IMG/VR virus record: IMGVR_UViG_3300025093_000032
Coordinates: 1-49,568 of that record
DNA length: 49,568 nt
Strand: one strand, 5' to 3'
Source: a virus
The first letter of the stretch is position 1; each line of letters opens with the position of its first letter. Shown here one piece after another: positions 5,501 through 49,357 of this stretch. The notes below the pieces were generated by a model, which made no database searches, was not told the DNA's origin, and worked only from the letters and a program-made list of their open reading frames with translations. Both the position numbers and the translations under genes were made by a program.

Positions 5501-5758
5501 AGCGTCAGGTGGATTAAACTGTGCCATATAATCAATAAGTTTAGGAGGCATTTCGCCATATTCAACATTCAATTGATTGCTTGCACCATCTAGTAAATAT
5601 TGCATGTATATCTTTTTTTCCATTTCGTTACGAGGAAAGTATGAATCATCGTATTCTTTACCATCATTACCTGTGGCATATTTTGGCACATCAAATACCA
5701 ATGGTTCGGGCAGCCCGTAGTCTGCTAAATTTAAAGTTTTTCTAACTGTATCAGCCAT
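2576..5758 (-). CDS. Large virion-associated protein, putative internal/ejection protein
   Basis: A 1060-aa protein with no motif I can tie to an enzyme. The N-terminal 230 residues are soluble and charged, starting MADTVRKTLNLADYGLPEP. Between about 215 and 290 lie Ala/Gly-rich stretches (AVAGASAGPISYAA, MGAAGLGPIAQGI) and near 790-815 a strongly hydrophobic stretch (AFVIGGVVTSPLATAGLVLF). Much of the rest reads as long amphipathic helices with Gln and Asn. Size, mixed helices with scattered hydrophobic patches, and location among tail-associated genes resemble internal virion proteins of short-tailed phages that are ejected to form a trans-envelope channel. The sequence does not prove this. 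Stop/start overlaps of one base on both sides place it in one tightly coupled operon. Confidence 0.8.
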   Translation of the reverse strand: MADTVRKTLNLADYGLPEPLVFDVPKYATGNDGKEYDDSYFPRNEMEKKIYMQYLLDGASNQLNVEYGEMPPKLIDYMAQFNPPDAILNARKLQKAGELAEQRRIDPIGFDSAIGVYKGGKQEYRFNDSLGTLLPGFDPYTLSDFANDMGKTARKLLPEDPRQLTRISAIIGADTYLMSKMMEAKRIKMKEPGKMRWLPKFYPWLAKFGEGKWGTAKQMAVAGASAGPISYAADSAYSLLNKMYAYTQGQDSASISEMQRGALRDAELEMMIGMGAAGLGPIAQGIKKYAINYPLGFRSNVSVEAVEKAARQNIPLSKVAASEADWVKAYSKIIGVFPAVGGPLRQSQAEARVAINQRIQDIMSTLSPGMTTLRGMQWAGKEAFDAFSKNVSKFRATNAIMYNSFFNQASKIDEAFIPTANLKEWVQSFAKSINGGDIPLSATAPDGQWIQNTGQLFNMLKVGDPTTGMKLLTALGSVPEHLTLKQFRQLQAQLNGAIRGFGGKGDGAMSQVGIDPQGTLAYLKDNLEHGLNDYKNWKKLTGPNEIIAQSSIKALRDANEFYMNNIEMFGFNAGQRGIGKAAQQVNRNIFAPGAPFKPGSLMPDQIFNRVMTEATAMSPMAIKEISEQLGKKNFANLAATYLNKIIGQNTEIIETPFKRNRSSARMGVKGNVPGGGTTQVSGAGGQVHDSEFVPIFNVDNLRKQLGMLPIEQGSKIQDRTNREAVIAMFDAMGQNGQKAYKDLQETLDIASLVNSFDISDVSDFVKRRGVLGGVKSIANAFVIGGVVTSPLATAGLVLFSNRFSKFLGNPTQLSKIKTVMGEGTERALQRANLINTIRATESYYTILDSDGAVSEMPDVSITQGGVDMPMLQRQPGQSSMNNDLRTINYFNNLVKKANAGELGGGLEDLTDIELLDYVILGTNGSPNMGQASMSRPKYDRQGDILAYETVDQQAPDRVLLEAAIMENGMVDSTPASIYGFKEENQEAINEIIDQSIQAPRNNPFLVNAQEVLQTEGGPAGRDFSVEREAVNVTDRSNLNADQQAALIRGDTDAAILAGRR

Positions 5759-6030
5759 TATTTTCTAGCCTTTCCATATCCTCGTGTTGCAATTCTACCT
5801 GCCATTCCACCTTTAGCTTTTTTGTTTTTAGCAGCTTTAGCAGCTGCAATTTTTGCTTTCATTTGTTTTCTTTTCTCCTCAATAGTTATGCCTCCAAGCA
5901 TTTTAGTTTGCTTTTGTTTTGCTTTAGCTCTTTGAGATTCAAATTCCTCTTTAGTCACTTCTCTTCCATTATAAAAATAAGTAACAACACCATCGAGTGT
6001 TTTTTTTCTAAAATTATTTACATCAGCCAT
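5758..6030 (-). CDS. Small basic protein with RGYGKARK C-terminal tag
   Basis: A 90-aa, strongly basic protein. Residues 1-35 form a compact polar head (VVTYFYNGREVTKEEFESQ); the rest is a Lys/Ala-rich helix (about 50-75) followed by KGGMAGRIATRGYGKARK. That ending is a diverged form of the RGGGIAKRGMGKAK tail on three other proteins in this window (27849, 38066, 38422). Basic, helical and small, it could bind DNA or another virion component; no function is known to me. It overlaps its upstream neighbour by 8 nt and its downstream neighbour by 1 nt, so it is an integral part of the operon. Confidence 0.75.
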   Translation of the reverse strand: MADVNNFRKKTLDGVVTYFYNGREVTKEEFESQRAKAKQKQTKMLGGITIEEKRKQMKAKIAAAKAAKNKKAKGGMAGRIATRGYGKARK

Positions 6031-8045: not shown

Positions 8046-8981
8046 TTAGCTTCCTGTCATTCCACCATATGCTTGAAGACCCGTAATACCAGCACCAATA
8101 GCACCGAGTAATGGGTTAGTATATGGTTGAGGAGTTTGTAACATTGTTTGAGACATACTTGGTGTACGAGATAAAATATCTGACATAAAGCCAAGTCTTT
8201 GATAAGGCTCTCTCGCTCTTTCCTGATTAAATCTATAAGTTTCATCTTGCATTTGTTGATCTCTTTGTCTTCTGATACCACCAATATTAAGTAAGGATCC
8301 TAAGCCTTGCTGTCCTAACTGTTGCATTTGTGCACCCATGTTAGCTTGCTGTGTTCCTAATTGACCGTATTGATTAGCTGCTGCTAATTGATTAGCTTGG
8401 TTTTGATTAAAAGTGTTTATTGCATTACCTTGAGCTTGTTGAAAGTTCTGTGATAAGTCTTGAAATATACGTTGTGATGCCATGTCAGCTAAACCTTTTT
8501 GAGCTTCTGCTTGTGCAACTCCGTATCTACTTCCGCCAAACACACCACCTTGTACTGCATCACCAGCCATTTTGTTCATCTGTTTCTGGAACTGTTCATT
8601 CATTTGTTCTAACGCTTTGTTAGTAACATTCTGTTGATATTGATTCATGAATCCTGACACGTTTGATGTCGAAGGATCGTATTGTTGTTGTGCTGCTTGT
8701 AGAGGAGCTATGCCTTGGCCGATAGTAGCCATTCCAGTATCAAGATATTGTTTGTAAGCAGGATCTCCTGTACTCATTCCTGTTGCAGGATCAATACCCA
8801 TTTGACCAGCACCAAAATTAAATGCTGCTGTTTCTGCTAAATCAAAATCAGCGATGCCTCTTCTTTCAGAAGGCATTGGTTGATCGCCACGTTTAAAAGT
8901 AGATTCTAATAAACGACGTCTATAGTCTTCTAAGAAAGGAGCTTCTCTTTGACCTGTATATTGTATATTTGGACTAGCCAT
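8046..8981 (-). CDS. Gln/Ala-rich helical virion-associated protein
   Basis: A 311-aa protein of a type I know only as hypothetical in marine phages. Residues about 85-255 are unusually rich in Gln, Ala, Asn and Met (for example KALEQMNEQFQKQMNKMAGD and NTFNQNQANQLAAANQYGQL) and look like long helices with irregular glutamine repeats. A glycine segment VQGGVFGGSRYGVAQAEAQ at about 142-160 separates two helical halves. The C-terminus (PLLGAIGAGITGLQAYGGMTGS) is a short hydrophobic glycine-rich helix that could touch a membrane. The stop overlaps nothing, but the start shares one base with the upstream gene stop (TAATG). A DNA-ejection or internal core role fits the composition, without direct proof. 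Confidence 0.78.
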   Translation of the reverse strand: MASPNIQYTGQREAPFLEDYRRRLLESTFKRGDQPMPSERRGIADFDLAETAAFNFGAGQMGIDPATGMSTGDPAYKQYLDTGMATIGQGIAPLQAAQQQYDPSTSNVSGFMNQYQQNVTNKALEQMNEQFQKQMNKMAGDAVQGGVFGGSRYGVAQAEAQKGLADMASQRIFQDLSQNFQQAQGNAINTFNQNQANQLAAANQYGQLGTQQANMGAQMQQLGQQGLGSLLNIGGIRRQRDQQMQDETYRFNQERAREPYQRLGFMSDILSRTPSMSQTMLQTPQPYTNPLLGAIGAGITGLQAYGGMTGS

Positions 8982-26667: not shown

Positions 26668-27140
26668 GATATTACCACCGTTGCTGTTCCTAATTGTGTG
26701 TTCATTATGGTATCTTGATTAGCTTGTGAACTTCCATTTAAAGGTTGCATTGTTCTCACCTGTACTGTTTCCATTGCGCCAGGTGCAGGTATAGGATTGA
26801 ATTGTTGTATAGTTTGTAAAACAGTTTGAAAACCATTAGCACCTATTGCGGGAGATATGCCATTAGATCCACCATTAGTCATACTGGTTGAATTAACATC
26901 ATCATTTATATAAATGCCTCCAAGAGGTATTGTTACACTAACAACTTGTGGTTTAGCATGTTGTAAAGATTGAGCATCCGTGGGATGATTGGTTGGATTG
27001 AGTAAAGGAGATTTAGGTTCATACTCTGAAGTGTGTACCCAAGCACCTGTCCATTCTTGCACCATTTCATTGTACGGATAAGCTTGTCCATCTCTATCGG
27101 ATATTCGTAAAGCAAACTTTCCTGATGAATAACGAGCCAT
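26664..27140 (-). CDS. Conserved small neck-region protein (MARYSSGKFAL)
   Basis: A 158-aa protein. The N-terminal half has RYSSGKFALRISDRDGQAYP, NEMVQEWTGAWVHTSEYEPK and SPLLNPTNHPTDAQSLQHAK, a recurrent pattern in marine phage genes located between the two neck adaptors. The C-terminal half is low-complexity with Asn, Gln and Pro. Possibly a small completion protein; no function is proven. Stop and start overlaps of 1-4 bases lock it between the two adaptors. Confidence 0.7.
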   Translation of the reverse strand: MARYSSGKFALRISDRDGQAYPYNEMVQEWTGAWVHTSEYEPKSPLLNPTNHPTDAQSLQHAKPQVVSVTIPLGGIYINDDVNSTSMTNGGSNGISPAIGANGFQTVLQTIQQFNPIPAPGAMETVQVRTMQPLNGSSQANQDTIMNTQLGTATVVIS

Positions 27141-27844
27141 TAATAAGTTCCTCCTATAAAGTCTGTTTTAGGAACAAAATGAGAGCTTACATTTTCTCTA
27201 TTTGTGTCTGCTGCTCTTTTAAATTCTTCTTCATACACTTGTTTTAATATTCCAATTCTATCTGGAGCATATTTCATGGCTATATAATAAGCTAATCCTG
27301 CTGTTAAACACGGTAAAAATGAAAAAGGTATTTCATTGTTATTAGTATAATCACCCGAGTCTTTCATTCTAAGCATAGCATAATAAACTACAGTATAAGC
27401 TACATCCGCAGCTGGGTATAAATACAGCTTAGGATTAATTGTTTTTTCAAAATAATATTGAGTAGGTCTTCCACCAGAAGTTTTAACTGTATAGTTTAAA
27501 TAGGTCGATCTGCTAATAGGAGAGCAGTTATATTCATTATTATCAGAATCTCTAATAACAAGATCAGTAATTTCTATTATTTCAGAAGCGTCTGAAGCTG
27601 CGGTTCCATACAAAGAAGTTCCGCTTAATTCAATAGTATTAGCGGCTAACGCTGCTGTTTGTTTTTGTATTGTCCAAAGATTAAGTCCTCTATTAGACCA
27701 TTCAGCTAAAAGAAGATTTAAAGAACGACGAGCGGTTTTAAGTTGGTATCCAGTACGATCTTGTAAACCGCATCGTTCAAAAGCTTCTTCAACTATTTCA
27801 TCAATAGAAAAGTCAAAATTTGCTGTGCTAGCATAAGTTGGCAT
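27140..27844 (-). CDS. Head-to-tail connector / tail adaptor (P22 gp4-like)
   Basis: A 234-aa protein. FSIDEIVEEAFERCGLQ and TARRSLNLLLAEWSNRGLNL at about 39-58 form the two N-terminal helices typical of P22 gp4-like adaptors. A beta region (IIEITDLVIRDSDNNEYNCS) and GGRPTQYYFEKTINPKLYLY lead to a C-terminal helical bundle that includes FLPCLTAGLAYYIAMKYAPD. It binds below the portal and closes the filled head. It is transcribed before the second adaptor and the fibres. Confidence 0.8.
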   Translation of the reverse strand: MPTYASTANFDFSIDEIVEEAFERCGLQDRTGYQLKTARRSLNLLLAEWSNRGLNLWTIQKQTAALAANTIELSGTSLYGTAASDASEIIEITDLVIRDSDNNEYNCSPISRSTYLNYTVKTSGGRPTQYYFEKTINPKLYLYPAADVAYTVVYYAMLRMKDSGDYTNNNEIPFSFLPCLTAGLAYYIAMKYAPDRIGILKQVYEEEFKRAADTNRENVSSHFVPKTDFIGGTY

Positions 27845-27848
27845 TTAA

Positions 27849-28295
27849 CTATTTAGCTTTGCCCATACCACGTCTAGCAACACCACCACCACGTCTGTTA
27901 ATTTTTTGATTTGGACGTTTACCAAATTTTCCATAAGATTCATTTCTTCTATCTTTCATAGATTGTTTCTTACCAGATTCTTTTCCAAGCCTCATACCTA
28001 TAGATTCATCTTCTCTAGCTTTGTAACCTTGTTTTTTCTTTCTTTTTTTTATAGCACTTTTAGCAGCTCCTGCCATTTTACCCACTAAACCTTTTAGACC
28101 TTTGCCAGCTGCACCTGCAGCACCTGCACCAGCTAACAAGCCCATAGCATCTAATTTGTGTAAAGGTAATTTAGTTTTTGAAATTAATTTTCCAATTCTG
28201 CCACCAGCTTTCTTTTTAACTGTGCCGCCTCTTTTCATAGCTCTTTTTTTAACTGAGCCACCTCGTTTCATGGCTGTTTTCTTTTTGCCCATCAT
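27849..28295 (-). CDS. Highly basic protein with C-terminal RRGMGKAK tag
   Basis: A 148-aa protein with a very high Lys/Arg/Gly content. Residues 1-32 contain two repeats of AMKRGGSVKKR / AMKRGGTVKKK. Residues about 50-85 form a hydrophobic Gly/Ala-rich helix (MGLLAGAGAAGAAGKGLKGL), followed by a Lys-rich coil. The end RRGGGVARRGMGKAK is the same tag as on 38066-38422 and 38422-38829. The start ATGATG overlaps the upstream stop (TGA), with GGAGG upstream. A nucleic-acid or membrane contact is plausible, but the function is unknown. Confidence 0.75.
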   Translation of the reverse strand: MMGKKKTAMKRGGSVKKRAMKRGGTVKKKAGGRIGKLISKTKLPLHKLDAMGLLAGAGAAGAAGKGLKGLVGKMAGAAKSAIKKRKKKQGYKAREDESIGMRLGKESGKKQSMKDRRNESYGKFGKRPNQKINRRGGGVARRGMGKAK

Positions 28296-31090: not shown

Positions 31091-31601
31091 CGTCTACATC
31101 CTCTTCTTGTGTGTTAATTTCTAAAACATTATCTTTAAATACAACACTTCCCTCTGGTATCATATCTGGATTTGACTTCCATTTATCCAAAGCTTCGGTG
31201 CCAATAGAACCCATATATGGAGGTGGTGTGCCTGCCATAACTAAACTATCGAACACTCGTGGGTCTTGAGCGAGAAGTGAAATTGCGGCAACTTTAAGGC
31301 CACTTGCATATAGTTGTCTGCTGAGCTTGAGCAATTGACACAGCTCGTCGTCCACTACAATTCCTGTAGCCAAACCAAGTATATTTGTTTGTATTGCACC
31401 TGACGTTGCCACTTTACAAACATCAGAATTATTAACAACAACACTTGGAGCATTTGCGGTAGGTACACTTTTATCCGTCACTACGGTAGAACTCACCGTG
31501 TTGGTATCTGCACCCAATGCTGAGTTCATCATACTGTTTAAAAAAAATATTAATATCGTTGCAAGGACAATACCTATTATTGATGGTTTTAACATTTCCA
31601 A
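31023..31601 (-). CDS. Membrane/secreted protein with hydrophobic C-terminus
   Basis: A 192-aa protein. Residues about 6-24 are a strongly hydrophobic segment (IIGIVLATILIFFLNSMM), acting as signal anchor or signal peptide. The middle contains two Cys (SDVCKV, DDELCQLL) and KVAAISLLAQDPRVFDSLVM then AGTPPPYMGSIG, a conserved block in marine phages. The last 16 residues are hydrophobic (KFLFLAMAMWIGVPILF), possibly a second membrane helix. Its final 68 nt overlap the signal peptide of the next gene in another frame, so that DNA codes two hydrophobic peptides at once. Confidence 0.75.
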   Translation of the reverse strand: MEMLKPSIIGIVLATILIFFLNSMMNSALGADTNTVSSTVVTDKSVPTANAPSVVVNNSDVCKVATSGAIQTNILGLATGIVVDDELCQLLKLSRQLYASGLKVAAISLLAQDPRVFDSLVMAGTPPPYMGSIGTEALDKWKSNPDMIPEGSVVFKDNVLEINTQEEDVDDGEFQKFLFLAMAMWIGVPILF

Positions 31602-31864
31602 CGTTTCCTTGCTTGTCGTAATCTTGAGTTAGGATTTGCTGCTGCTTTTGGAAATTGTTTCATTTGTCCTGCACTTCTAGCACAATAAGATTTTCTACGT
31701 TTTGCGGCTTTAGATCCTTTTTTAACTTTGCCTGTTACGGCTGTTTTTAATTTAGAACCAGGATTCATGGCTCTATATTTTTTGACTCCTGCTCTAGTCA
31801 TTCCCGCCCCAGACTTGGTGGGGCGGAAGTTCTTTTTATTTCGTCTTGGTTGATTATCAGCCAT
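31589..31864 (-). CDS. DUF6321-type basic phage protein
   Basis: A 91-aa, very basic protein. Start placed at the ATG (MADNQPRRNKK) rather than the TTG two codons upstream. The core AGMTRAGVKKYRAMNPGSKL, KKGSKAAKRRKSYCARSAGQ and the end NPNSRLRQARKRWKC are the family signature (DUF6321). Two Cys, one at the very C-terminus, are conserved in it. The function of the family is not known to me; composition suggests nucleic-acid binding. It overlaps both neighbours (8 nt upstream, 13 nt downstream). Confidence 0.8.
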   Translation of the reverse strand: MADNQPRRNKKNFRPTKSGAGMTRAGVKKYRAMNPGSKLKTAVTGKVKKGSKAAKRRKSYCARSAGQMKQFPKAAANPNSRLRQARKRWKC

Positions 31865-32147
31865 ATACAAAGAATACGGATGTAATATTTGTTAATGTTG
31901 CGTGTGGGTTTGTTTTAAAATTTAAACCCTCAGAACCAAAATCTATATTTTGAGTTAGTGTAGCTCCTGCTGGTGTATTAATAGTTGCTAGTGTTGAACC
32001 ACCGCTTGAATCTTTTAAAACAACAGACCCTGCAGTACCTGCACCTACAATATACATACTTAATATTCTAGCTGGAACTGATGCAACATCGCCAGTAGAA
32101 GTTATTGTAGAAGTTGATACTCCTGGAGTTGTATAAATCATACCCAT
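31857..32147 (-). CDS. Small beta-rich structural protein
   Basis: A 96-aa protein that is nearly all beta strand in pattern: STSTITSTGDVASVPARILS, MYIVGAGTAGSVVLKDSSGG, and ATLTNITSVFFVYG. It resembles 11480-11815 in layout (a rigid Thr/Gly framework with an aliphatic strand at the end). Such small subunits often decorate heads or tails; the location just after the capsid terminator is consistent but not proof. Confidence 0.6.
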   Translation of the reverse strand: MGMIYTTPGVSTSTITSTGDVASVPARILSMYIVGAGTAGSVVLKDSSGGSTLATINTPAGATLTQNIDFGSEGLNFKTNPHATLTNITSVFFVYG

Positions 32148-32722: not shown

Positions 32723-33625
32723 TTACGAACCTTGTGACGCGTAAACACATCTAGGATCTGAGTAACCAAAGCTGTATCTCTCTCTTGCTTTGTATCTCAT
32801 GTTTCCTGTATCAAAATCACCTTCCATGCCAGTAGCAAGGGCAGCTCTTGTGAAGTGTTTAAATCCATTAGGACAATCTGTTTTAATGAAATATGCATCC
32901 GTATCTGTTAGATAATGGTTAACAGTGTAACCACCTGGTAGCATACCCATGTTTTTCAGAGCGTTAATGTCGTTGTCAGCAGTACCGACTCTTAGAGTAG
33001 ATTCTAAGATTCTGTCAGCTACAAATTGAATGTTAACAGGAATGATTAATTTCTGTCCTTTCATTGCAACTTTTAAGCCTCTTTCGTCGATAAAACCAGC
33101 AATGTCAATCATCGCTTGTTCTAATGAAACATCAGTAAGGTCGGCGTCAGTAGCACTTCTATTTGAGAAGTTACCACCTAGTGCTGTTGGGTGAGCAGTG
33201 TTAGCTAAACTAACTCCGTCTCCACCAGCTACTGTGAACGCATTGTTTAATACGTTAGCGCCTCTAACTTGTTTCGTGTAAGCCATAGATCTTGCTAGGG
33301 CTTTTGTGTAACGAGCTGATAGACTGTCATATAAGTTGTCTTCAACAGCTTCCTCAGTCAAACTAAATGCAAGTGCAATAGTATCGTGAGTGTATCTAGC
33401 AGTGAAAGACTCAGAAGCAGTATCAAAACCAACTGCTGACCCTTCTGCTTTTACATTAGCTTGTCCGAATCCAACTAACATAACTTCTTCTTCAAAAGCT
33501 CTGTCACTTGTTTCTTGCTCAAAAATTTGAGCAGCTTCGTTTTCGTAGCGTGCGTACTCCAAACCGAACAGGGCATTTAAACCAGGTTCTAGTTCTTTGG
33601 CAAGCTGTGCTCTATTAATAGCCAT
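32723..33625 (-). CDS. Major capsid protein (Mu gpT / HK97-fold type)
   Basis: A 300-aa protein, the right size and place for the capsid subunit. The N-terminal helix (LEPGLNALFGLEYARYENEA) is followed by E-loop-like residues, EVMLVGFGQANVKAEGSAVG and FSLTEEAVEDNLYDSLSARY, then an A-domain block, GGDGVSLANTAHPT (about 133-146), LKVAMKGQKLIIPVNIQFVA and a C-terminal GNMRYKARERYSFGYSDPRC. The A-N-T-x-H-P-x and K-x-R-E-R-Y-x-F-G pieces are typical of Mu gpT-like capsid proteins. It is preceded by an AGGAG site and followed by a terminator, which fits very high expression. Confidence 0.88.
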   Translation of the reverse strand: MAINRAQLAKELEPGLNALFGLEYARYENEAAQIFEQETSDRAFEEEVMLVGFGQANVKAEGSAVGFDTASESFTARYTHDTIALAFSLTEEAVEDNLYDSLSARYTKALARSMAYTKQVRGANVLNNAFTVAGGDGVSLANTAHPTALGGNFSNRSATDADLTDVSLEQAMIDIAGFIDERGLKVAMKGQKLIIPVNIQFVADRILESTLRVGTADNDINALKNMGMLPGGYTVNHYLTDTDAYFIKTDCPNGFKHFTRAALATGMEGDFDTGNMRYKARERYSFGYSDPRCVYASQGS

Positions 33626-34769: not shown

Positions 34770-35705
34770 TTACGCCTCCTTCACGTGTTTTGCGTACTCT
34801 TCGAGCGGCACACCAAGTTTTTTTGCGATAGCTACCTGTGAAGGTGTGAGTCTCACAGTGCGGCGCCCAGAGGGCGATGTTCTCACAGCCGAAGCTACTT
34901 TTTGAGTAGGTTTCGACTTATCCTCAAATTTATGAGGAAACTCTTTTCGAATTCTTCGAGAAATCTCATTATAGTAATCTTGTCCGTTTAAGTCAAACCC
35001 TTCTTCTGCTAAATCTTGATGAATTACCATAGCAGAGGCTGTCATTACTCTGTCTTTGTTAAACCAAGGATTAGCTTCAGCCCAATCTTCTGCTTCAGGA
35101 GTTGGTCTAGGGGCTTGTTGTGATGGTTGTTCTTGAACTTGATTATCAAAAGAAGGAATTTCTTCTTCTTTTGGTGCTAGTTTAGCAGCTTCTAATCTTC
35201 TTTGAGAAACTTTTATTTTTTCTTTTTCTAGTTCAAGTTTAGCCATTTGCTGTTGTGCAGCTACTTGTTTTTCAACATCATTTGCTTGAATAGCCGCTTC
35301 CATAGCTCTTTTTGTAAACTCTTCTTGAGTTTTTATTCTTGCTGTACCTTCTTCGATATTTCTTTGATCTTTTGTCATACCGACAGATTCAGCATGTTTT
35401 AATTTTTCTTGAGCTTTTTTAGCATACTCAATAGCTGCTTGTTCTCTGCGTTCAGCTTCACGCATTTTTTTTGTAAGCTTATCAATTCGTTTTTTTACAC
35501 CTACACTATATTCTTCTAACTCTTCTGATTTTGTTTCCGTAGGAGTCTCTTGTACTTCTACTTGAGGAGTTTCTTCTTGGACCTGTTCTACTTGAACCTG
35601 ATCATTTGTATCATTTAATTCCACATCTACAGCATCTCCTGATGTATCTATAGGAACCATTTTTTCTGATTTACTTGTTTGTACTTCTTGCATAGACTTC
35701 TCCAT
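34770..35705 (-). CDS. Putative capsid scaffold protein
   Basis: A 311-aa, highly charged helical protein. Residues 1-65 are acidic and disordered (many Glu, Gln, Val). Residues about 70-190 form a long Lys/Glu/Ala coiled coil (KRIDKLTKKMREAERREQAA). Then comes WAEANPWFNKDRVMTASAM at about 218-236, the NPWF element common in phage scaffolds, and a basic C-terminal helix (RRTVRLTPSQVAIAKKLGVP) that would bind the capsid subunit. Size, composition and position upstream of the capsid gene agree with a scaffold that is removed from the mature head. No protease motif is visible. Confidence 0.75.
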   Translation of the reverse strand: MEKSMQEVQTSKSEKMVPIDTSGDAVDVELNDTNDQVQVEQVQEETPQVEVQETPTETKSEELEEYSVGVKKRIDKLTKKMREAERREQAAIEYAKKAQEKLKHAESVGMTKDQRNIEEGTARIKTQEEFTKRAMEAAIQANDVEKQVAAQQQMAKLELEKEKIKVSQRRLEAAKLAPKEEEIPSFDNQVQEQPSQQAPRPTPEAEDWAEANPWFNKDRVMTASAMVIHQDLAEEGFDLNGQDYYNEISRRIRKEFPHKFEDKSKPTQKVASAVRTSPSGRRTVRLTPSQVAIAKKLGVPLEEYAKHVKEA

Positions 35706-35706
35706 G

Positions 35707-36126
35707 TTACATTAAATTAGCTGGCAAAATATCTCTAGGATCTTCGACAACGGCCAGTACCTCGTCGTCGTTGATTATGCGAAGTTCACCACCATCAATG
35801 CTAAGTCTAGCTCCAGCATATTTTGTAATGATAATCCAATCGTCTTTTTTGCACCACGCACCATTAGGAAATTTATCTTTATCTTGATAAGCATCAGGTC
35901 CTACAGCGATAACTTTACAAATATTAGTAGCAATCGAAGCTTGTTCAATAGCTGCATCAGTAAGATGTACACCACCCGCTGTTTTTCCTTCTAATTTCAA
36001 AGGAAATAAAACAAGACGGTATCCTGTTGGTTGAGGCACTTTTTCTATGTCTTTCTTTTGTTTCTCTTTCTTTTTACCATCCCAAATATGTTTTGGCATA
36101 ATTAGTTTACTTGCTGTCTTATTCAT
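35707..36126 (-). CDS. GroES-like co-chaperonin (Cpn10)
   Basis: A 139-aa protein whose residues about 33-132 follow the GroES fold. PTGYRLVLFPLKLEGK is the first strand pair; TAGGVHLTD at about 49-57 is the mobile loop that binds GroEL (GroES has AGGIVLTG). TNICKVIAVGPDAYQD leads to the GAWCKKDDWIIITKYAGARL roof region, and ELRIINDDEVLAVVED is the last strand. A basic extension of about 30 residues precedes it; GroES itself is about 97 residues. It probably caps host GroEL during folding of the capsid protein, as T4 gp31 does. It overlaps the upstream gene by 8 nt and sits directly before the scaffold gene. Confidence 0.85.
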   Translation of the reverse strand: MNKTASKLIMPKHIWDGKKKEKQKKDIEKVPQPTGYRLVLFPLKLEGKTAGGVHLTDAAIEQASIATNICKVIAVGPDAYQDKDKFPNGAWCKKDDWIIITKYAGARLSIDGGELRIINDDEVLAVVEDPRDILPANLM

Positions 36127-36313: not shown

Positions 36314-36756
36314 TCTTTCATCTGTTCAGCCATCTCTTTAGCTCTGTTAGGTGTCTGTTTTGCCCAACGGGAGTCGAGCATTTCAATACTCGCAACATCA
36401 TACTGAGGCGGCTCTTGTTGAAGAGCTTTCCACATATTGCGAAATTTAGAAACACCTGATTTTCCTAGCTGAAATACCATTTCTATAATTATAATTTTTG
36501 CATCATCACTGATGTTTGCTTTACCACCAGAAGGACAGTTATTTATTAAATCCTCTGCACCCTCGATGGCATTTTGTAAATCACGAACTAAAATTCCTTC
36601 CAAATACTTTTCATCATATTCTTTGTCATCTTCCCAGTGATCCTCTACACACAGGTGGCCGTAGCCCACTGTTCTTTTGTTTAGGGTATCTAAATATACT
36701 TTATTTCGAAACCCTTCGTGCTTCTTTACAGAAGCCAGTAATTTATCCATGTTCAT
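36304..36756 (-). CDS. T4-type lysozyme / endolysin (GH24)
   Basis: A 150-aa peptidoglycan muramidase that degrades the cell wall at lysis. The catalytic triad of GH24 is in place: Glu14 in KHEGFRNKVY, Asp23 in YLDTLNK and Thr29 in RTVGYGH. Landmarks of the C-terminal lobe, SKFRNMWKALQQ and SRWAKQTPNRAKEMAEQM, match T4 lysozyme. There is no signal peptide, so it needs the holin encoded downstream (37243-37653) for release. Start coupled by ATGA to the 62-aa gene. Confidence 0.92.
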   Translation of the reverse strand: MNMDKLLASVKKHEGFRNKVYLDTLNKRTVGYGHLCVEDHWEDDKEYDEKYLEGILVRDLQNAIEGAEDLINNCPSGGKANISDDAKIIIIEMVFQLGKSGVSKFRNMWKALQQEPPQYDVASIEMLDSRWAKQTPNRAKEMAEQMKECA

Positions 36757-36941
36757 GTATATATCTTTGTTGTAGGTCGTTTATTTTTTAACATTCTTCC
36801 AAACCCTCTTGGTTTGACCTCTATATACCCTCCCGCTTTCTTTTTTACAATCTTATTCCCATGTTTTTTTGCCCAGCTTTTAGCAACTTCTGGTTCATTT
36901 GCATAAAGATACGCTCTTTGTTTTTTAGAGCGAAAAGGCAT
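36753..36941 (-). CDS. Small basic conserved phage protein (MPFRSKKQRAYLYANEPEVA)
   Basis: A 62-aa protein. The N-terminal half, MPFRSKKQRAYLYANEPEVA, is a widespread conserved block of tiny phage proteins, followed by WAKKHGNKIVKKKAGGYIEV. It ends in a basic tail, PRGFGRMLKNKRPTTKIYT. The last part repeats the Gly-Gly-hydrophobic pattern of several virion proteins in the window. Function unknown. It overlaps lysozyme by four bases and the EF-hand gene by one. Confidence 0.75.
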   Translation of the reverse strand: MPFRSKKQRAYLYANEPEVAKSWAKKHGNKIVKKKAGGYIEVKPRGFGRMLKNKRPTTKIYT

Positions 36942-37246
36942 TATCTTTTCTTTTTAGGTTTAAAAGCAGTTTTAGCTGATTGTTTTAAAGCTTTTGCAGA
37001 AACAGTGCCTTTGCCAGGTCGACTCGTGCCCGCTTTTTTGCGTTTGTTCATGTTGTAATAAAGTCCCTTTTTAACAGTTCTTCCATCTTTGGTTACATGA
37101 GTTCCTTTACTTGCTTTAATAACAGAACCTTCTCTTGAACCTTTTGCCATGCCACCACTTTTTCTAGCAATAACTCCTCTACCTATTAAAACATCTTTTT
37201 TTGTTATTTTACCGTCTCCACTTAAATCTTTCATTTTCTTTTTCAT
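36941..37246 (-). CDS. Basic protein with single EF-hand-like loop
   Basis: A 101-aa protein. Residues about 7-18, DLSGDGKITKKD, fit the EF-hand loop D-x-S-x-D-G-x-I-x-x-x-D, with oxygen ligands at loop positions 1, 3, 5, 9 and 12. The remainder is a Lys/Arg/Gly/Ser-rich, probably unstructured chain (KSGGMAKGSREGSVIKASKG, then KKAGTSRPGKGTVSAKALKQ). A Ca2+-dependent switch or folding aid is possible, but a single loop without a helix partner is a weak predictor of binding. It overlaps the holin gene by four bases. Confidence 0.75.
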   Translation of the reverse strand: MKKKMKDLSGDGKITKKDVLIGRGVIARKSGGMAKGSREGSVIKASKGTHVTKDGRTVKKGLYYNMNKRKKAGTSRPGKGTVSAKALKQSAKTAFKPKKKR

Positions 37247-37829: not shown

Positions 37830-38069
37830 TTAAAATAAACCTTTGAATGCTACTTTTTTAATCTGTACCTTACTACGTTGACCTTTTGGCCCTGCACCTA
37901 AGTTTTGTTTTACTTTAGGTCCTTCCATAGTAGCACTATAAACATCTGTTGTTCCAGTTTTATTTACATGAGGCCCTGCATAAGGATTCATGTCTTTTGA
38001 AACTGTCATCTTAGCATTTGGATACATTGATCCGTTTATATACTTTGGTTTTGGATTATCTAAACTCAT
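37830..38069 (-). CDS. Small unknown polar protein
   Basis: A 79-aa protein rich in Pro, Lys, Asn and Gly (MSLDNPKPKYINGSMYPNAK, then MNPYAGPHVNKTGTTDVYSA, end KVQIKKVAFKGLF). No domain recognised. It overlaps its upstream neighbour (tagged basic protein) by four bases. The 42-base gap after it contains the strong ribosome-binding site of the 44-aa peptide. Confidence 0.65.
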   Translation of the reverse strand: MSLDNPKPKYINGSMYPNAKMTVSKDMNPYAGPHVNKTGTTDVYSATMEGPKVKQNLGAGPKGQRSKVQIKKVAFKGLF

Positions 38070-38422
38070 TTTGCTTTCCCCATTCCACGTTTTGCTATTC
38101 CGCCACCACGTTTTTTAGTGACTGCTGGTTTTGCTTGACCACTTTTTGGTTTTGCTTTTAATAATTCCATGTACCTTCTTACATCCTTTTCATCAAATCT
38201 TTTAGGTTTATAAGGTTGAGGTTCCATTTTTGGAAATCTTTTACGAGGTGTTCCTGGTTTAAAAGGTCCTAAACCTCTTTTCTCTAAATCCTTTAAAATA
38301 TCTCTTATACTTCTTTTTCTTTTACCTTTGTTTGCTTTAGCAATTCCAGGTTGCCTATCACTTGATAGTCTATACGGATTTTTTTTAGTTTTTTTCTTTG
38401 GTTTTTTTATTGTTAGTGCCAT
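38066..38422 (-). CDS. Basic protein, C-terminal KRGMGKAK tag (copy 1)
   Basis: A 118-aa protein, mostly Lys, Arg and Pro (KKPKKKTKKNPYRLSSDRQP, then KGKRKRSIRDILKDLEKRGL). It contains a helical stretch around FDEKDVRRYMELLK and ends TKKRGGGIAKRGMGKAK. The tail is the same as in the next gene upstream and almost the same as in 27849-28295. The body has no clear relation to theirs. DNA or RNA binding is the obvious guess; nothing proves it. It overlaps 38422-38829 by one base. Confidence 0.78.
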   Translation of the reverse strand: MALTIKKPKKKTKKNPYRLSSDRQPGIAKANKGKRKRSIRDILKDLEKRGLGPFKPGTPRKRFPKMEPQPYKPKRFDEKDVRRYMELLKAKPKSGQAKPAVTKKRGGGIAKRGMGKAK

Positions 38423-38829
38423 TATTTTGCCTTTCCCATACCACGTTTAGCTATTCCGCCGCCTCTAGCCTTCATTGTTTTTGGTGGGTTTTTTCTACTT
38501 CTCATGTATTCATCATAGCGGTTAATATCTTTTTTAGGTCTTCTTTGTCTAAGTATTCTTTTTAAATCGTCTAAATTAATTCTTCCAGAAGGTTTACGTT
38601 TTCTTAATTCCTCTAATAATTTTTTATTAACTCTATCTACTTGTGGGGGAGAAGATTTTGGCATTTTTTTCTTTGATTTACCTACTGGTCCGCCTTTTTT
38701 TCTTTTTAATTCTCCAACAATTCTCTTTTTTTCTGCTTTAAGGTTTTTTTTACCTTTTCTAGTATAAGCTCTTTCAGCATCTACTCTGCCAAGCTCTTCT
38801 AATCTATTCATTCTTCGAGTGTTTGCCAT
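38422..38829 (-). CDS. Basic protein, C-terminal KRGMGKAK tag (copy 2)
   Basis: A 135-aa protein: helical N-terminus (NRLEELGRVDAERAYTRKGK), a Lys/Arg-rich middle (KRIVGELKRKKGGPVGKSKK) and a helical DLKRILRQRRPKKDINRYDE before KARGGGIAKRGMGKAK. The tail peptide is shared with copy 1, but the codons differ mainly at third positions. It overlaps copy 1 by one base, so the two are probably made together. Function unknown. Confidence 0.78.
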   Translation of the reverse strand: MANTRRMNRLEELGRVDAERAYTRKGKKNLKAEKKRIVGELKRKKGGPVGKSKKKMPKSSPPQVDRVNKKLLEELRKRKPSGRINLDDLKRILRQRRPKKDINRYDEYMRSRKNPPKTMKARGGGIAKRGMGKAK

Positions 38830-38837
38830 AATATCTC

Positions 38838-39071
38838 CTAATGAATGGTTGGTTTAAATATTTCAACAAAGTCAAAAACGCCTTTATTTAGTATTTCCTG
38901 CCCTTCTTTTTGTCCTAACTCTTGAAAGTACAAAACTTTAGCCATGCTCATCATAGCACCTGCTAAAAGTATACTATCCTCTGGTGTTTTGGAAGACTTT
39001 TCTACCATTTCCATTAAAGAAATAAAAAACTCTTCAAGTTTAAGGTCAGCATTAGTCTTCGAAATCAACAT
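38838..39071 (-). CDS. Small helical protein after portal
   Basis: A 77-aa helical protein (LEEFFISLMEMVEKSSKTPE, then ILLAGAMMSMAKVLYFQELG). Its start lies inside the portal gene (20-nt overlap). The pattern is common after portal genes in marine phages; function unknown. Confidence 0.65.
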   Translation of the reverse strand: MLISKTNADLKLEEFFISLMEMVEKSSKTPEDSILLAGAMMSMAKVLYFQELGQKEGQEILNKGVFDFVEIFKPTIH

Positions 39072-41472
39072 CTTTTTGTATTTTCTCTTTTCTTGGCGTA
39101 TTTGCCTTTTCTAAATTAACATTTGCTCTTAATTGAGCAATATCTTCTTGAGAATCTATCTTATCTTGTGTTAAATCTGCTGTTTGTTGTAATTTTGCTT
39201 GATCTAAGCCCAAACGAACTTCGTCATAGTTTCTTTTACGCTCATTTTCCATTGCTTTTAAGTTAATTTCTTGTTGTTTTAAGTCAATTAACGGATCAGC
39301 GTTTTCAGATTCTAAATATTCTTGTTCTTCAGCTATCATTTCTTCTGTCATTTCTACAATTTTCTCCGCAGTTCTTGCTTCAATGATTTCTTGGAATTGC
39401 ATTTGAATTTCTTGAGGTAATTGACCACCATATTGAGCAGATTGTTGTTCAATTGCTTCTCTGTTTTCTTCTTCTACTTCTTCTCTTGCTTGTAAAGCAA
39501 CGTGTTCCATGACATGTGACTCTAATAACATCAAAGTTTGCATATTATTTTTAACTAAAAATGACGACATCATCGCTTGATGAGCATCAATGTGAGCCAT
39601 GTGATTTTGACCTCTAAAAGCTCTCAACGTTTGTCCCATCAAAGCTTTAGAATTTTCTATACCTGGATCTAAAGGTTGTGGTTGTTGTGGTGTTGGTAAA
39701 ATAGAAACAATATCTTTTACACCAAGTGCTTCATACATTCTTCTATATGCTTCATACATGTTATGAGAAGCAGGATCTGCTTGTGCTAATTGTAATTGTG
39801 TTTGTGCCAACGTCACACGTTGAGACATTGAAAATATATTTGGATCTGAAACAGGAATAACATCTATTCTATCATCAAAATCTTGTTGTTTAACCATTTC
39901 AAAACCTTGTTGTCCTGAAGGTTTGTAAGGATAAGTAGGAGATAAAGATTCTTTAAATATGTTTGATAAAATATTAAACTCTACTTTTTGAGCATAGTGC
40001 AATCTTTTATGAATGGCACTCATTACTCTTGTTCCTCTTTCCATAACTGCCATTGTTGTTCCAACAGGAGCACCTGCTTTTCCAGCATCTCCTATTTTCT
40101 GATCAGCAATAGTTGCAAAACGAGTACCTGCTTCTACAACAAAACCTAATAATTGAAATAATGTTTGACTTGGTTCTTTGTAAGGTAATGGCATTAAGCC
40201 TTCACGCAGACTTCCACCAGGGGCATCTACATCTCTGAACTCTCCTGGTTGGAGGGGAGAATCGTCGTCTTTAACTCGCAATCCACGAGCCTTAAAACCC
40301 GCAGGGAGATTGGACAATGTACCTGCATCAAGAAGTTGTCTAAGTGCTGCCGTTGCAGTTCGGGAGAGACCCCCGAGCATGTGAATAAGACCAAAGCCAT
40401 AAAAACCCATGCCAGGCAAAAACTTATAGTGGACAAAATATTTGTTTTTCTTTTTAAGTGGATCATCTTCTTTGTAGTTTCTGTAAATAGAAAGAACCTG
40501 TGTTGATCCTTCATCAATGGTTACGATATAAGGAACTTTAATTCCGTCGTCACTATCTATTCCTTCAATGTTTAAATCTACATGCATTTCAAATAAAGTA
40601 TATTCATCTTCCATGCCTGTATCTTGAATACCTTCAATCTGTCTTTCTTTTTCAGTAACACGATCTTCGTTATCTAATGATTGTATCTCCACATCACGAT
40701 AGAAACCTCCTACTTGTTGTTTACGAATTTCATTTTCGTTCATTTTAACGATATGTGTAATTCTTTCGGTAGAATATAAATCAGTAGCTGTGTAAGGAAC
40801 TAATAAATCATCAGCCGATACAAATTTAGAAACTGCTCTTTGTAATACGTCATCATAATAAACTTTTTTAAATGCTGAACCTGCAAGAGGTAAGTGAAAT
40901 AACATTTGATCTAATTCAGGATCATACTCTTCCATGACATGCATGATTTGATAATTCATGAATTCTTTAACACGCTCTGCTTGTTCTTCTTTTGCAGCGT
41001 CTATTTTACCAATTACTTGAGTATTAACTGGACCACCTGCTGGTAATAATTCTCTGTAAGCTTGTGCTTGAAACTGTGTTACAGATTCTGCCAACATAGG
41101 ATGTGTAACACTGCTTGCTCCTTGAAAAGGTTGTGTTCTATCCCTGTATTTAAAACCTAAAAGATCTAGTCCTTTACGATATGTTTCTGACCATTCTTTT
41201 CTTGATGACTTATCATTTTCTACCTTCTCCATTAATTCTGAAGAAAGTCTGCCTAATTCTTTTTCGTCTAATATTTCAGCTATGTTTGTGTTAAAATCAA
41301 CTTGTATATCTTCTACTTGTTCACCTACAATTGCAGAGCCGTCTTCTAGTATTTCTACATCATCAGTTATTTCCATGCCGTTTATATCGACAGGAACGGT
41401 ACCTTTGTCAAAATCTTGTGGTTCTGGTAAAGTGGGATTTTGTATTTTTTTATCTATATTATCAATCGCCAT
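39052..41472 (-). CDS. Portal protein
   Basis: An 806-aa protein that forms the dodecameric DNA entry ring of the capsid. Landmarks: an acidic N-terminal 80 residues; YRKGLDLLGFKYRDRTQPFQ and VTHPMLAESVTQFQAQAYRE at about 125-145, a typical portal opening; PLAGSAFKKVYYDDVLQRAV; FVSADDLLVPYTATDLYSTE. A central helix-rich core with GMGFYGFGLIHMLGGLSRTA follows, and ATIADQKIGDAGKAGAPVGT leads to a C-terminal helical barrel (AREEVEEENREAIEQQSAQY). Size is normal for portal proteins of the P22/SU10 kind. It is directly downstream of the 1489-aa gene (11-nt overlap). Confidence 0.85.
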   Translation of the reverse strand: MAIDNIDKKIQNPTLPEPQDFDKGTVPVDINGMEITDDVEILEDGSAIVGEQVEDIQVDFNTNIAEILDEKELGRLSSELMEKVENDKSSRKEWSETYRKGLDLLGFKYRDRTQPFQGASSVTHPMLAESVTQFQAQAYRELLPAGGPVNTQVIGKIDAAKEEQAERVKEFMNYQIMHVMEEYDPELDQMLFHLPLAGSAFKKVYYDDVLQRAVSKFVSADDLLVPYTATDLYSTERITHIVKMNENEIRKQQVGGFYRDVEIQSLDNEDRVTEKERQIEGIQDTGMEDEYTLFEMHVDLNIEGIDSDDGIKVPYIVTIDEGSTQVLSIYRNYKEDDPLKKKNKYFVHYKFLPGMGFYGFGLIHMLGGLSRTATAALRQLLDAGTLSNLPAGFKARGLRVKDDDSPLQPGEFRDVDAPGGSLREGLMPLPYKEPSQTLFQLLGFVVEAGTRFATIADQKIGDAGKAGAPVGTTMAVMERGTRVMSAIHKRLHYAQKVEFNILSNIFKESLSPTYPYKPSGQQGFEMVKQQDFDDRIDVIPVSDPNIFSMSQRVTLAQTQLQLAQADPASHNMYEAYRRMYEALGVKDIVSILPTPQQPQPLDPGIENSKALMGQTLRAFRGQNHMAHIDAHQAMMSSFLVKNNMQTLMLLESHVMEHVALQAREEVEEENREAIEQQSAQYGGQLPQEIQMQFQEIIEARTAEKIVEMTEEMIAEEQEYLESENADPLIDLKQQEINLKAMENERKRNYDEVRLGLDQAKLQQTADLTQDKIDSQEDIAQLRANVNLEKANTPRKEKIQKDVDFED

Positions 41473-44400: not shown

Positions 44401-45931
44401 TCGTAATATCAGCTGTCATACCAGGAGTCGATACACCTGATTGTAATTGACTCTGTAAATTTTTTAATGCTTTATCATATACATTGTATTGTCTTATATT
44501 AGATTTTAAAGGAGCTAAAAATAAATTATCTATATTGAGAGCTAACCTGTAATCATCAGCAACATCTCTAACGTGTGCTAAACTAACATCATCTATAACA
44601 TCCATAGTTAACCCTTTATCTCTGGCCTGCTGTACTCTTTTAGTTATTTGTTCTTTTTTATTAAGTATGTCATAAATTTTTGGCATACTTTTTGGATCTG
44701 TTTTATTTAAAACTTCAGTTGCATTTTCTGCTGCTTTAACAGGATCAGTTCCTGCTATTATTTGTTTATTAATCATTCTATTAATTTGATTATTAAGGTT
44801 TGTACCAATCATTGTTGAATTTATATCGGTGGGAGCAAACTCTATTATTTGTTTTTTAAAATTATCTATATCTTTATACATTTGACTATCTTTTGGTATA
44901 ACACTTCCATCATTCCATCTAATGTTTCCTGCCTGATAATCTGCAACATAATCCGAAGAACGAGGTTTATTAAGAGAAGCTTCAGTTCCAGGATTAAAAT
45001 TACCTATTTCATCAGGGTATATAATTTTTGTATCTTCAAATAATCTCTTTAATTCTTTTAAGTCTCCTGTTGTATCAAAGGTTCCCGCCCCTCTGTTTAC
45101 TCCAAGCTGATTAAAATAATTTTTTAGTAGAGGGCTGTTCTCTGTTACATGGTTAAAAAATCCTTCTCGTGAAAAACTTCTTCCGATAGGTTCTTCACCG
45201 TATTTTTTAAAAAATTCATCTCTATAATTTTTTGTTACTTTTGCTATATCAGAATAAACATAGTCATAAACAAAACCAGGAAGCTGTGATGCTTTAGTAT
45301 AGCCTCGCATCTTAAAACCTTTATCTTGTAAAATTTTTATAGCATCCACTGTGCTAAAAATATCTTCAGGTAGAATTAGTTCCCTTTCAAACATATCATC
45401 TACTATTTTGTTTAATTGAGGAATCCTTCCCTTTTCTGTTCCTATGTTATTGTAAATTGTATCAAACTTGTCGAAGGCCTCTTTATTTAAAGCTCTATTT
45501 TTGTATATATCTTTAAAGTTTTCTAAAAACTCAGTATACTCAGGCATGTTCTTTAACGACTTACCTTTCGTAAGTTTACTTTTCATTACCTGTATTTGAT
45601 CTAAGGCCTCTCCAAAAATAGGATCTTCATCAATGTAATCTCTTAGTTGTTGTTCTCTGCGTTGTAATGATTCATTAAGTAAATTTTTTTTTGCTGCTAT
45701 TTGGTCTTTATTCTTTACTCTCTGTCTTCTGTTTCCTCTTCCACTTACAGTTGTATATTCAAATCTTTTCTGTCTATTTAGAATAGCATTTTTAACCACT
45801 GTATCTACGTCAGTGTCTCCACCAAGTCTTCTGTAAAAATCTGCTCCAGTTTCAATTAACCCTTCTATACCTTCATACAAATCTGAAATAAGACCTGTGT
45901 CTCCTCGTTTAGGTTTTCCAATTTTAGCCAT
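41462..45931 (-). CDS. 1489-aa polyvalent-like protein between terminase and portal
   Basis: By far the longest gene here. N-terminal about 600 residues: charged helices (SDLYEGIEGLIETGADFYRR, then KRFEYTTVSGRGNRRQRVKN). About 600-860 include a hydrophobic segment (IGVDALKAAGLGAAEIFFAF) and Gly-Gly elements (SEGGEVVV, YGGEVTPG). The C-terminal third carries VIAWSRLSDRD at about 1113-1123, the box EIQSD at 1138-1142, WADASIKRDIYEAAYRKF near 1271, and KHFTSAMEKSLKRIAKENNV. The EIQSD box, a following W-x-x-x-x-I-K-R helix and a late Lys-rich helix are the landmarks of a large polyvalent-protein-associated domain. Such multi-domain proteins are known or suspected to enter the host with the DNA. 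Activity is not known. Confidence 0.75.
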   Translation of the reverse strand: MAKIGKPKRGDTGLISDLYEGIEGLIETGADFYRRLGGDTDVDTVVKNAILNRQKRFEYTTVSGRGNRRQRVKNKDQIAAKKNLLNESLQRREQQLRDYIDEDPIFGEALDQIQVMKSKLTKGKSLKNMPEYTEFLENFKDIYKNRALNKEAFDKFDTIYNNIGTEKGRIPQLNKIVDDMFERELILPEDIFSTVDAIKILQDKGFKMRGYTKASQLPGFVYDYVYSDIAKVTKNYRDEFFKKYGEEPIGRSFSREGFFNHVTENSPLLKNYFNQLGVNRGAGTFDTTGDLKELKRLFEDTKIIYPDEIGNFNPGTEASLNKPRSSDYVADYQAGNIRWNDGSVIPKDSQMYKDIDNFKKQIIEFAPTDINSTMIGTNLNNQINRMINKQIIAGTDPVKAAENATEVLNKTDPKSMPKIYDILNKKEQITKRVQQARDKGLTMDVIDDVSLAHVRDVADDYRLALNIDNLFLAPLKSNIRQYNVYDKALKNLQSQLQSGVSTPGMTADITRQIDDIGKQLEFEGIVTDVGYGRVGKAKPSDDVVKMYDDQVDFYMAQPEDRLYTAEMNERITEGAQGPGFSEGGEVVVDEDTGMMDYLTDNPLYNNVIKPIEEARDAKAEEYDLENNPQRVLPVIIGEALELPGEAYDALPNWLEGEDSILKNITNPNALSIALAKAATGVVGIGTDPVAALTKPIGDPDRITTIPYPTWEKKEDGQYHFKDMQTLELASDNPIAIGVDALKAAGLGAAEIFFAFNPIKLIKLGANPGLAKKVAKVIVNDFAGPIVALTTAYNVSDIIDSKKAEELNEATKEIQNKTSEIVDNPEKLEKYKDAQKLGDSQNAGYGFPGTYANQGWAYGGEVTPGPFSESMQTGLEEEIDIKDLDLGPAYEGFEDLDIFEEAERSGNRPVEVALNLNKVVGEVPKWVKQGKERVKMYLDNILPGPNTPETGTDLTIVDDVAENVTPLTRSEPGQIFYHQMEAELERGPKVYNSSKEVYDFLNARGIGKVEVIDSEIKPMLEKLEGMGQPITREMLLGVVRESPIRNVKSGGYGFLSRELDGEARNLQYSGYKEDGAIPNTDRERVLYVDPQDLRGDTGNVPSSMSAHSFSEPYVIAWSRLSDRDLGGAFSGKTVTFADEIQSDIFQASQRMAGKLAAKLRHMTDQNIPFDEISNELQRDMLKYFQDKGTVFRESMPSASALKVEYDKLIALQNQLRELARTPVPEITDDMLKAARGVEAEQAAILDGLVEKFNLDLNRQLFPNLPFKLRDQWADASIKRDIYEAAYRKFVLKDPNATDYYAITPANLVTKRYSHSGSTATPQADRVADKKERLQSWINGGLQGDIPSSKYPGVGMYEFYGGPGEDVVTEGGKHFTSAMEKSLKRIAKENNVKLEVLPVRISSGKREVFQIVERGTGEVLGVANTGRQADAIANDIIANSDKKVNVKRAEEFDTAPSFGVELTPSMAEAFKAYMASGGYVADEEIVGAYGD

Positions 45932-47372
45932 AGTATTCCCTTTGTGGTTCTATTAACGAAGGCTCATCCTGATAGTCAGAATCCAACTGAATAAAGTTGC
46001 CTTGTCTAAATCTAAGCAACGCTTGTGTTGTTGAATCAACTAAATCGTCATGCTCACCATAAGGGAAAGCAGCGCATTCTTCAATCACTTCTTCTGCCCA
46101 TCTGTCTTCTGTACACCATACCTGACCTGCTTCAAAGAGTGGAGCTACGGAGTTAACACGAACGTGCTTATCATTGCCCTTACTGGGCGTATAAGTAACT
46201 ACAGGAATTCCTAATTGACGTAGCTCCTGAGTTAAGGGCATACCAGAAGCTTTCGCTTCAATCAAGATTGTTTCGGGTTCCCAGTATTTATATTCGTCTA
46301 ACGCGATTTGTTTTAGTTCAGGAAAATCCCAACGACCCTTTCGCATATCAAGAAGAATGATGTGAAATGGTCCGTGTTCCACGGGCTTAAAGACACCCCA
46401 CGTTGTTATCGCACTAAAGTCTGCTGTTTCTTTTTTACTGAACGCTGTGTCATAACTTTGTATGATATGCATCAAATCAGGAATATCCTCCCGCGGCCAC
46501 ACTTTCCACCAATCTCTTTTGATGATTGATCCTTCTTCTGAGGTTGGTGCTTGTTGCCATTGTGCTTGCCACTTCTGTTCGGACAAAGAAGCTTTGACAC
46601 CTTGTAATTCTTCTAGTTTCCAAAACTCTGGCCATAACGGTTTGTCGTTCAAGATGGCTGGAAACTCGACCACTTCCCAATTGTCAGCGTGTTCGTTTGT
46701 TTGTTGTGCTAATAATTTTCCCGTAAGATCCTTTGTGGACCATCTGGTCATAACTATAACAATAGCACCACCAGGTTGTAAACGTTGTCGAGGTCCAGAA
46801 GTGTACCATTCGTAGGCGTTGTCCATAGCTGTTTGGCTGAGTGCGTCTTGCTCTGAGTGAGGATCGTCAATAATAAGGAGATCAGCACCACGACCAGTAA
46901 TAGCACCACCCACCCCAGCAGCAAAATACTCTCCACCAGCGTTAGTTGTAAAACGCCCCGCTGCCTTAGAGTCTTGTGATAAGCTGACAGTCGGGAAAAC
47001 ATCTTTGAAATCTTGTTGATCAAATAAGTTCCTCACTTTCCTACCAAAGTTATATGATAACTCTGCAGTATGTGTAGTCTGTATTATCTTTAATTTTGGT
47101 TTTTGTCCAAGCATCCATGCAGGAAATAAATGTGAAGCAAATTCTGATTTAGTATGTCTTGGTGGCATATTAACAATTAGTCGTTTTATTTTTCCACGTG
47201 AAATGTCTTCAAATTTTTTTGCAATAATTTTGTGATGTGAACCTGCAACAAAGTCTGGCCAAACTTTTTTTACAAAAGTAAGGTAGGAGGAACGGGACTC
47301 CTCTGCCACTTTTATCTGTAGATTTCTTAATTCGTATTTTAAAAGTTCCGTTGGAATTTCAGGTTTTTTCAT
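45924..47372 (-). CDS. terL: Terminase large subunit
   Basis: A 482-aa DNA-packaging motor and nuclease. ATPase: Walker A NMPPRHTKS at 68-76 and Walker B DLLIIDDPH at 164-172 (catalytic Asp169/Asp170); motif III region IVIVMTRWSTKDL. Nuclease domain: QSYDTAFSKKETADFSAIT with the first acidic ligand, ILIEAKASG with the second, and HDDLVDSTTQALLRF with the last. All catalytic residues seem present. No small terminase is recognisable next to it; the 80-aa product of 47696-47938 could be a candidate but has no convincing DNA-binding fold. A promoter-like sequence lies very close to its ATG. Confidence 0.92.
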   Translation of the reverse strand: MKKPEIPTELLKYELRNLQIKVAEESRSSYLTFVKKVWPDFVAGSHHKIIAKKFEDISRGKIKRLIVNMPPRHTKSEFASHLFPAWMLGQKPKLKIIQTTHTAELSYNFGRKVRNLFDQQDFKDVFPTVSLSQDSKAAGRFTTNAGGEYFAAGVGGAITGRGADLLIIDDPHSEQDALSQTAMDNAYEWYTSGPRQRLQPGGAIVIVMTRWSTKDLTGKLLAQQTNEHADNWEVVEFPAILNDKPLWPEFWKLEELQGVKASLSEQKWQAQWQQAPTSEEGSIIKRDWWKVWPREDIPDLMHIIQSYDTAFSKKETADFSAITTWGVFKPVEHGPFHIILLDMRKGRWDFPELKQIALDEYKYWEPETILIEAKASGMPLTQELRQLGIPVVTYTPSKGNDKHVRVNSVAPLFEAGQVWCTEDRWAEEVIEECAAFPYGEHDDLVDSTTQALLRFRQGNFIQLDSDYQDEPSLIEPQREYYG

Positions 47373-49290: not shown

Positions 49291-49357
49291 GTTGTTCCTT
49301 TCTAATGTGTGTGGCCGTTTGCAAAACTTCTAAACGGATTCGGTAGCCACAGGTACT

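Follow-up and report, generated by a model that had tools for sequence, protein, structure and literature searches.

A conserved basic C-terminal tag on otherwise unrelated proteins encoded near the head genes of SU10-like podoviruses

Why would one phage place the same short peptide at the end of several proteins whose bodies do not align? The question is raised by a 49.6-kb IMG/VR virus contig, which is 49,568 nucleotides long and is called the window here. An earlier note on this DNA reported the ending RGGG[IV]A[KR]RGMGKAK for three of its proteins and the related ending AGRIATRGYGKARK for a fourth, and all four C-termini were found in the products of the genes listed below. That observation is correct and understated. 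The proposed portable, peptide-level end-tag near the portal and neck genes stood, but the earlier note had seen one flavor of it and the full set contains at least three classes. As defined after viewing the data, class A is RG[YM]GKA, class B is RGGGAAxRGxxFxG[VI][FKY], an expression that lets in a few false members, and class C is RGCGAVM, with the typical form RGCGAVMxxRRKxTxY.

Tagged proteins of the window and their gene neighborhood

The tagged proteins of the window, and one doubtful member of the family, are as follows.

5758..6030 (-), 90-aa basic protein encoded among the ejection-protein genes; class A tag of the Y type, GGMAGRIATRGYGKARK, at 5761-5811
27849..28295 (-), 148-aa basic protein whose gene immediately precedes that of the adaptor; class A tag RGGGVARRGMGKAK at 27852-27893; stop codon TAG
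36753..36941 (-), 62-aa basic protein; class C-like C-terminus PRGFGRMLKNKRPTTKIYT at 36756-36812
37830..38069 (-), 79-aa basic protein with the C-terminal residues VAFKGLF; similar to the class B tag end (..FKGV[FK]), without the RG core; doubtful as a member of the tag family
38066..38422 (-), 118-aa basic protein, net charge +32, pI 11.2; class A tag RGGGIAKRGMGKAK at 38069-38110; stop codon TGA
38422..38829 (-), 135-aa basic protein; class A tag RGGGIAKRGMGKAK at 38425-38466; stop codon TAA

The tagged window proteins have net charges of +15 to +40 and pI values above 10. The tag of 36753..36941 had been overlooked in the earlier note. The 38422..38829 product starts with a conserved helical N-domain (MANTRRMNRLEELGR...), which is followed by a variable spacer and then the tag.

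Several side observations concern these small genes. Relatives of the 37830-38069 product retain the ending [VP][AP]FKG[LV][FK]. Tandem tagged genes are frequent, with stop/start overlaps of 1-4 bases (window 38066-38829; pairs in contigs L225, L283, and L295), and these overlaps suggest coupled translation. An EF-hand/dockerin-like loop, D[LI][ST]GDGK[IV]TKKD, lies near the N-terminus of small basic proteins (window 36941-37246, L015:5399-5797, and L084:22496-22762). This loop, a putative calcium site judging by its sequence, is often paired with the tag (class A in 23 of 50 relatives).

The landmark genes of the window are listed here.

8046..8981 (-), DNA ejection protein; phrog_4287; near the fourth tagged gene (5758..6030)
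27140..27844 (-), adaptor; phrog_12985; its homolog in the related contig G001 matches PF24175 SU10_adaptor
32723..33625 (-), major head protein (MCP); phrog_371
34770..35705 (-), acidic protein between the GroES and capsid genes, a putative scaffold by its position; phrog_28737 (unknown function)
35707..36126 (-), GroES-like co-chaperonin
39052..41472 (-), portal protein; phrog_1216; upstream of the tandem tagged genes
45924..47372 (-), terminase large subunit (TerL)

The order of the head region is TerL, a 1,489-aa protein, portal, a row of small basic genes, GroES, the scaffold-like protein, capsid, further small genes, and adaptor. The window portal is 49-50% identical to those of the Pelagibacter phages HTVC027P and HTVC023P, and the portal of G002, a related contig from the same search set, matches PF23899 SU10_portal. 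Phages with the tag are probably largely marine, as judged from related isolates rather than from a survey of contig sources.

Three further features of the window were seen. In its last 0.7 kb (48855-49525), overlapping ORFs compete on both strands. A basic protein at 31589-31870 carries DUF6321 (PF19846), a module that in PHROGs forms the C-terminal end of longer proteins (for example, positions 444-525 of phrog_10346) and is, therefore, another portable C-terminal module adjoining head genes. At 8981-9847, a 288-aa podovirus protein has a C-terminal stretch, KEDKIPAMLSDGEFVFTAKAV, that matches tape-measure protein families and represents a further shared module.

The flanking landmarks bear out the claim that the tagged genes sit near the portal and neck. 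Most tagged genes lie among the head and neck genes of SU10-like podoviruses, and they are flanked mainly by TerL-portal, portal-GroES/holin, MCP-adaptor, and tail-ejection. On contigs of at least 14 kb, 51 of 58 tagged genes had a virion landmark no more than six genes away (odds ratio 4.3, P 4e-5), a supportive result that is not fully independent since most contigs were fetched by tag or portal. The exception is found in G003, G004, and their relatives, where tagged genes outside the head block lie between a polymerase-like and a TerS-like gene, both assigned by sequence inspection.

We hold with moderate confidence that the peptide is a portable C-terminal cargo-loading tag, which recruits its cargo to a single partner within the head during assembly. 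The tagged family of G003 and G004, placed away from the head genes, counts against this reading. It is unlikely that the partner instead lies outside the head interior (terminase, the outside of the portal, or the GroES-like chaperonin) or is a host protein, so that the tag would direct assembly order or host takeover and not packaging. That alternative is consistent with the tagged family adjoining a TerS-like gene and with tags beside TerL, portal, GroES, and tail genes. Against it, tagged genes are commonest in the TerL-portal, portal-GroES, and MCP-adaptor slots.

Terminal position, classes, and portability of the tag

We looked for an equal frequency of the motif at internal positions and for a lack of synonymous excess among the tag copies, and found neither. 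In 80 loci fetched via the portal and never via the tag, RG[YM]G occurred 35 times in the last 25 residues of proteins and at none of the 162,802 internal positions. When basic proteins alone were considered, the count was again 35 terminal and 0 internal. A scan of 2.9 million viral contigs with A-x-RGYGKA, a pattern that carried no stop codon, yielded 99 distinct matches; in most of them the protein terminates no more than 8 residues further on. The M-type pattern gave a mixed result among the matches listed and also caught ordinary GC-rich ORFs. All matches above 8 bits in longer records were at most 7 aa from the end.

The controls, together with the terminal-only occurrence of RG[YM]G, lead us to reject a chance origin. 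Read backwards, the pattern had 0 matches compared to 28 forward (22 records), and shuffled or reversed ORFs scored at most 8.6 bits compared to up to about 33 for real tags. The near-miss pattern RGGAAxRG, used as a negative control, gave matches without a C-terminal pile-up.

Basic proteins could also owe such an ending to contact with DNA or RNA. A tail resembling RGG or AT-hook motifs, which coats or condenses phage DNA or binds RNA and has no protein receptor, is a possible but less probable explanation. The charge and pI of the window proteins are consistent with it, as is the core R-G-x-G-K with K/R on both sides; charge alone could bind DNA, and the products of the neighboring DUF6321 and phrog_27331 genes are small and basic too. 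However, R, G, G, and A are fixed in 90 of 90 distinct tags (partly since this motif was used for collecting them), while charge alone would let K and R swap. The motif is also missing internally in equally basic proteins. Simple charge was rejected as the explanation because of the fixed residues.

Phage heads often mature by proteolysis, and a strictly terminal, conserved tag could be a protease processing or degradation signal. We consider this extremely improbable. Among the window genes scanned (a subset of the ORFs), no separate head protease match was seen, the tag is basic, unlike ssrA-type degrons, and a processing signal leaves three interchangeable classes and their per-contig dialects unexplained. 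Targeting is favored over processing or plain charge by the strictly terminal position, the exact residues, the dialects of individual contigs, and the presence or absence of the tag within families.

The other two classes are terminal as well. Class B tags end 7 residues past the second RG in at least about 55 distinct cases, and class C tags end 7-15 residues on in at least 105 matches (open frames of 25 or more codons). Phage HTVC023P has two class B tags, at the ends of gp32 (RGVGAAIRGHKFIGVK) and gp51 (RGGGAAVRGMGFKGVF). Contig G002 has all three classes in different slots, as would be expected of different addresses, and this fits the alternative of a partner outside the head interior. 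A rather unlikely extension is that largely marine SU10-like phages employ three or more C-terminal address tags that can replace one another (RG[YM]GKA, RGGGAAxRGxxFxGV, and RGCGAVMxxRRKxT), each recognized by a separate site of the virion under assembly, with the recognition dialect co-evolving per phage. If true, this would be a modular sorting code with which phages swap virion cargo freely.

That the tag sits on unrelated bodies, as had been claimed, is upheld by the window proteins and by the wider set. With the last 18 residues removed, the window bodies showed no significant phmmer similarity, and BLAST found only short K/G-rich matches with E of at least 0.02. The tagged proteins, which reach 716 aa, form 65 clusters at the cut used; since K-rich sequences are thrown together in one large cluster and many clusters have a single member, dozens of body families is the safe figure. 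The large tagged bodies had no Pfam function except for one LysM protein. This 415-aa tagged protein (L191:2281-3528) has a LysM domain and an EF-hand-like loop and is encoded in the neck-adaptor slot; it hints that some cargo possibly meets peptidoglycan. No isolate relatives were found for the four tagged proteins searched. A tblastn search of phage isolates with the bare 21-aa tag gave no match, probably because low-complexity masking was on.

The tag is also kept where the body is not. In the slot after the portal, among phages whose portals are 65-90% identical, bodies had an identity of 0.35-0.37 (0.28-0.29 for shuffled sequences), while the 14-residue tag had 0.65-0.71 and its 7-residue core about 0.82. 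A single body type can carry different classes or none: the phrog_23735 body had class A in 4 cases, B in 2, C in 48, and none in 40, and the phrog_27331 body had class B in 6, C in 20, and none in 66. HTVC027P gp47, a relative of the 27849..28295 product, stops exactly where the tag of its relatives starts. In the chimera L119:840-1073, an N-terminus from the 27849-28295 family is joined to a core from the 38422-38829 family and then to the common tag. Relatives of two body families in T7-like marine phage isolates are without the tag, which counts against cargo loading and suggests that the bodies do not need it or that another route exists. The K/G-rich spacer varies in length and is dispensable, being absent in 61-aa forms, and a low-confidence structure model predicts the tail as a coil.

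Codon divergence and per-contig dialects

The tag could be a by-product of duplication or recombination at a repeated DNA end, with no function for the peptide itself. A few loci agree with such an origin: recent copies were found among the within-contig pairs of L225 (14 of 15 codons identical) and L218 (13 of 15), and L119 arose by recombination between two tagged genes. In most pairs, however, the codons are saturated (between contigs, an identity of 0.42 where 0.40 is expected). No within-contig pair exceeded 50% codon identity in 24 of 42 contigs, and these are the codon-saturated contigs. Recent copying accounts for pairs such as L225 and L218 and not for the 24 saturated contigs.

The window copies speak against this origin as well. 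The claim that their codons differ mostly at synonymous positions held for the three RGMGKAK copies, with 6-7 of 14 synonymous and 0-2 of 14 nonsynonymous differences per pair. The dN/dS over the tag codons is about 0.03-0.05 (NG86 dN 0.03-0.10, dS 1.1-3.1), rough values from 14 codons only. The three copies have different stop codons (TGA, TAA, and TAG) and their codon identity is that of independent draws (6 of 13 in the tabulated pair, about 5.5 expected), in agreement with the suggestion that the peptide is under selection and the copies are not recent at the DNA level. At the portal slot, the tag outlasts the body. An origin as a DNA by-product is already largely refuted, and we regard it as very unlikely.

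Tags on unrelated bodies of one contig had 12.2 of 15 residues in common, compared to 8.8 of 15 between contigs. The difference persisted in the 24 codon-saturated contigs (11.8 of 15 within and 8.8 of 15 between; Wilcoxon P 2e-5). These per-contig dialects would fit shared descent followed by peptide selection, or co-evolution with one partner, and either origin implies a protein-level function. Bare charge does not predict them, which weighs against a nucleic-acid-binding tail, and dialects that track the phage are hard to explain with a host partner unless the phages infect different hosts. The tag is real and confined to the very end of the protein. It is portable and under purifying selection, its three classes can stand in for one another, and its dialects match among the proteins of one contig.

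Possible role and comparison with known systems

A variable body, a dispensable spacer, and a fixed basic coil tail make up the anatomy of a recognition peptide. For this reason, and in view of the T4 and encapsulin parallels described below, cargo loading is ranked first, followed by a nucleic-acid-binding tail and then by a partner outside the head interior. With cargo loading, the cargo would comprise numerous small proteins of very basic character along with some large ones. Their genes lie mostly in the head block, and the tag follows a flexible K/G-rich spacer. The exposed tail would be bound by a shared partner, most likely an acidic one inside the prohead (scaffold, inner face of the capsid, or portal), and the bound cargo would be built into the virion and maybe delivered with the DNA. 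One partner is probably common to all tagged proteins of one phage, and it may sit in the head, with the cargo being packaged.

If the tag loads cargo, it would allow a prediction from sequence of which among the many small basic proteins annotated as "hypothetical" in abundant ocean phages enter the virion, and perhaps the host cell by injection. It would also be a candidate short C-terminal fusion tag with which to load proteins into phage heads. Even if no role is assigned to it, the tag is a widespread, strongly selected feature for which no description was found. The literature searched, which mostly did not extend to subscription journals, so that an earlier description is possible, had no mention of these motifs in phages and no virion proteomics, localization, or binding data for the tagged phages. 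The best-supported mode of action is known already, whereas no account was found of the tag family, of its position at the C-terminus, or of classes that replace one another.

The closest parallel in a phage is the capsid targeting sequence (CTS) of T4, which is N-terminal and cut off by the head protease. In contrast, the present tag is strictly C-terminal, basic, and Gly/Arg-rich, and its packaging role is putative. The internal proteins of T-even phages are diverse and only the CTS is conserved (PMC3012670); the likeness lies in diverse, fast-changing bodies, a short conserved sequence, several cargos per phage, and the head-assembly context (PMC3012670). A segment of P1 DarB, which is reported to target both DarB and a heterologous reporter protein to the capsid of a tailed phage, is likewise a protein segment with a capsid address (PMC9024508). 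The DarB segment was reported for one protein and not as a tag on many unrelated bodies.

RGG and GR-rich nucleic-acid-binding motifs are also Arg-Gly-rich and basic. The tag differs from an RGG box in being one fixed, terminal-only motif with near-invariant columns, and not a variable-length, position-free repeat that tolerates substitution.

The cargo-loading peptides (CLPs) of encapsulins are short, often C-terminal, and found on different cargos; they are sufficient for loading into an HK97-fold shell, and the cargo genes adjoin the shell gene (PMC7355545). The tag resembles them in its terminal placement behind a flexible linker. As for gene location, most tagged genes are in the head block and one family is outside it. 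CLPs bind a hydrophobic luminal pocket, whereas the tag is strongly basic and its partner is putative. If the tag loads cargo, it would extend the capsid-targeting principle seen in T4, P1, and encapsulins to uncultured ocean phages.
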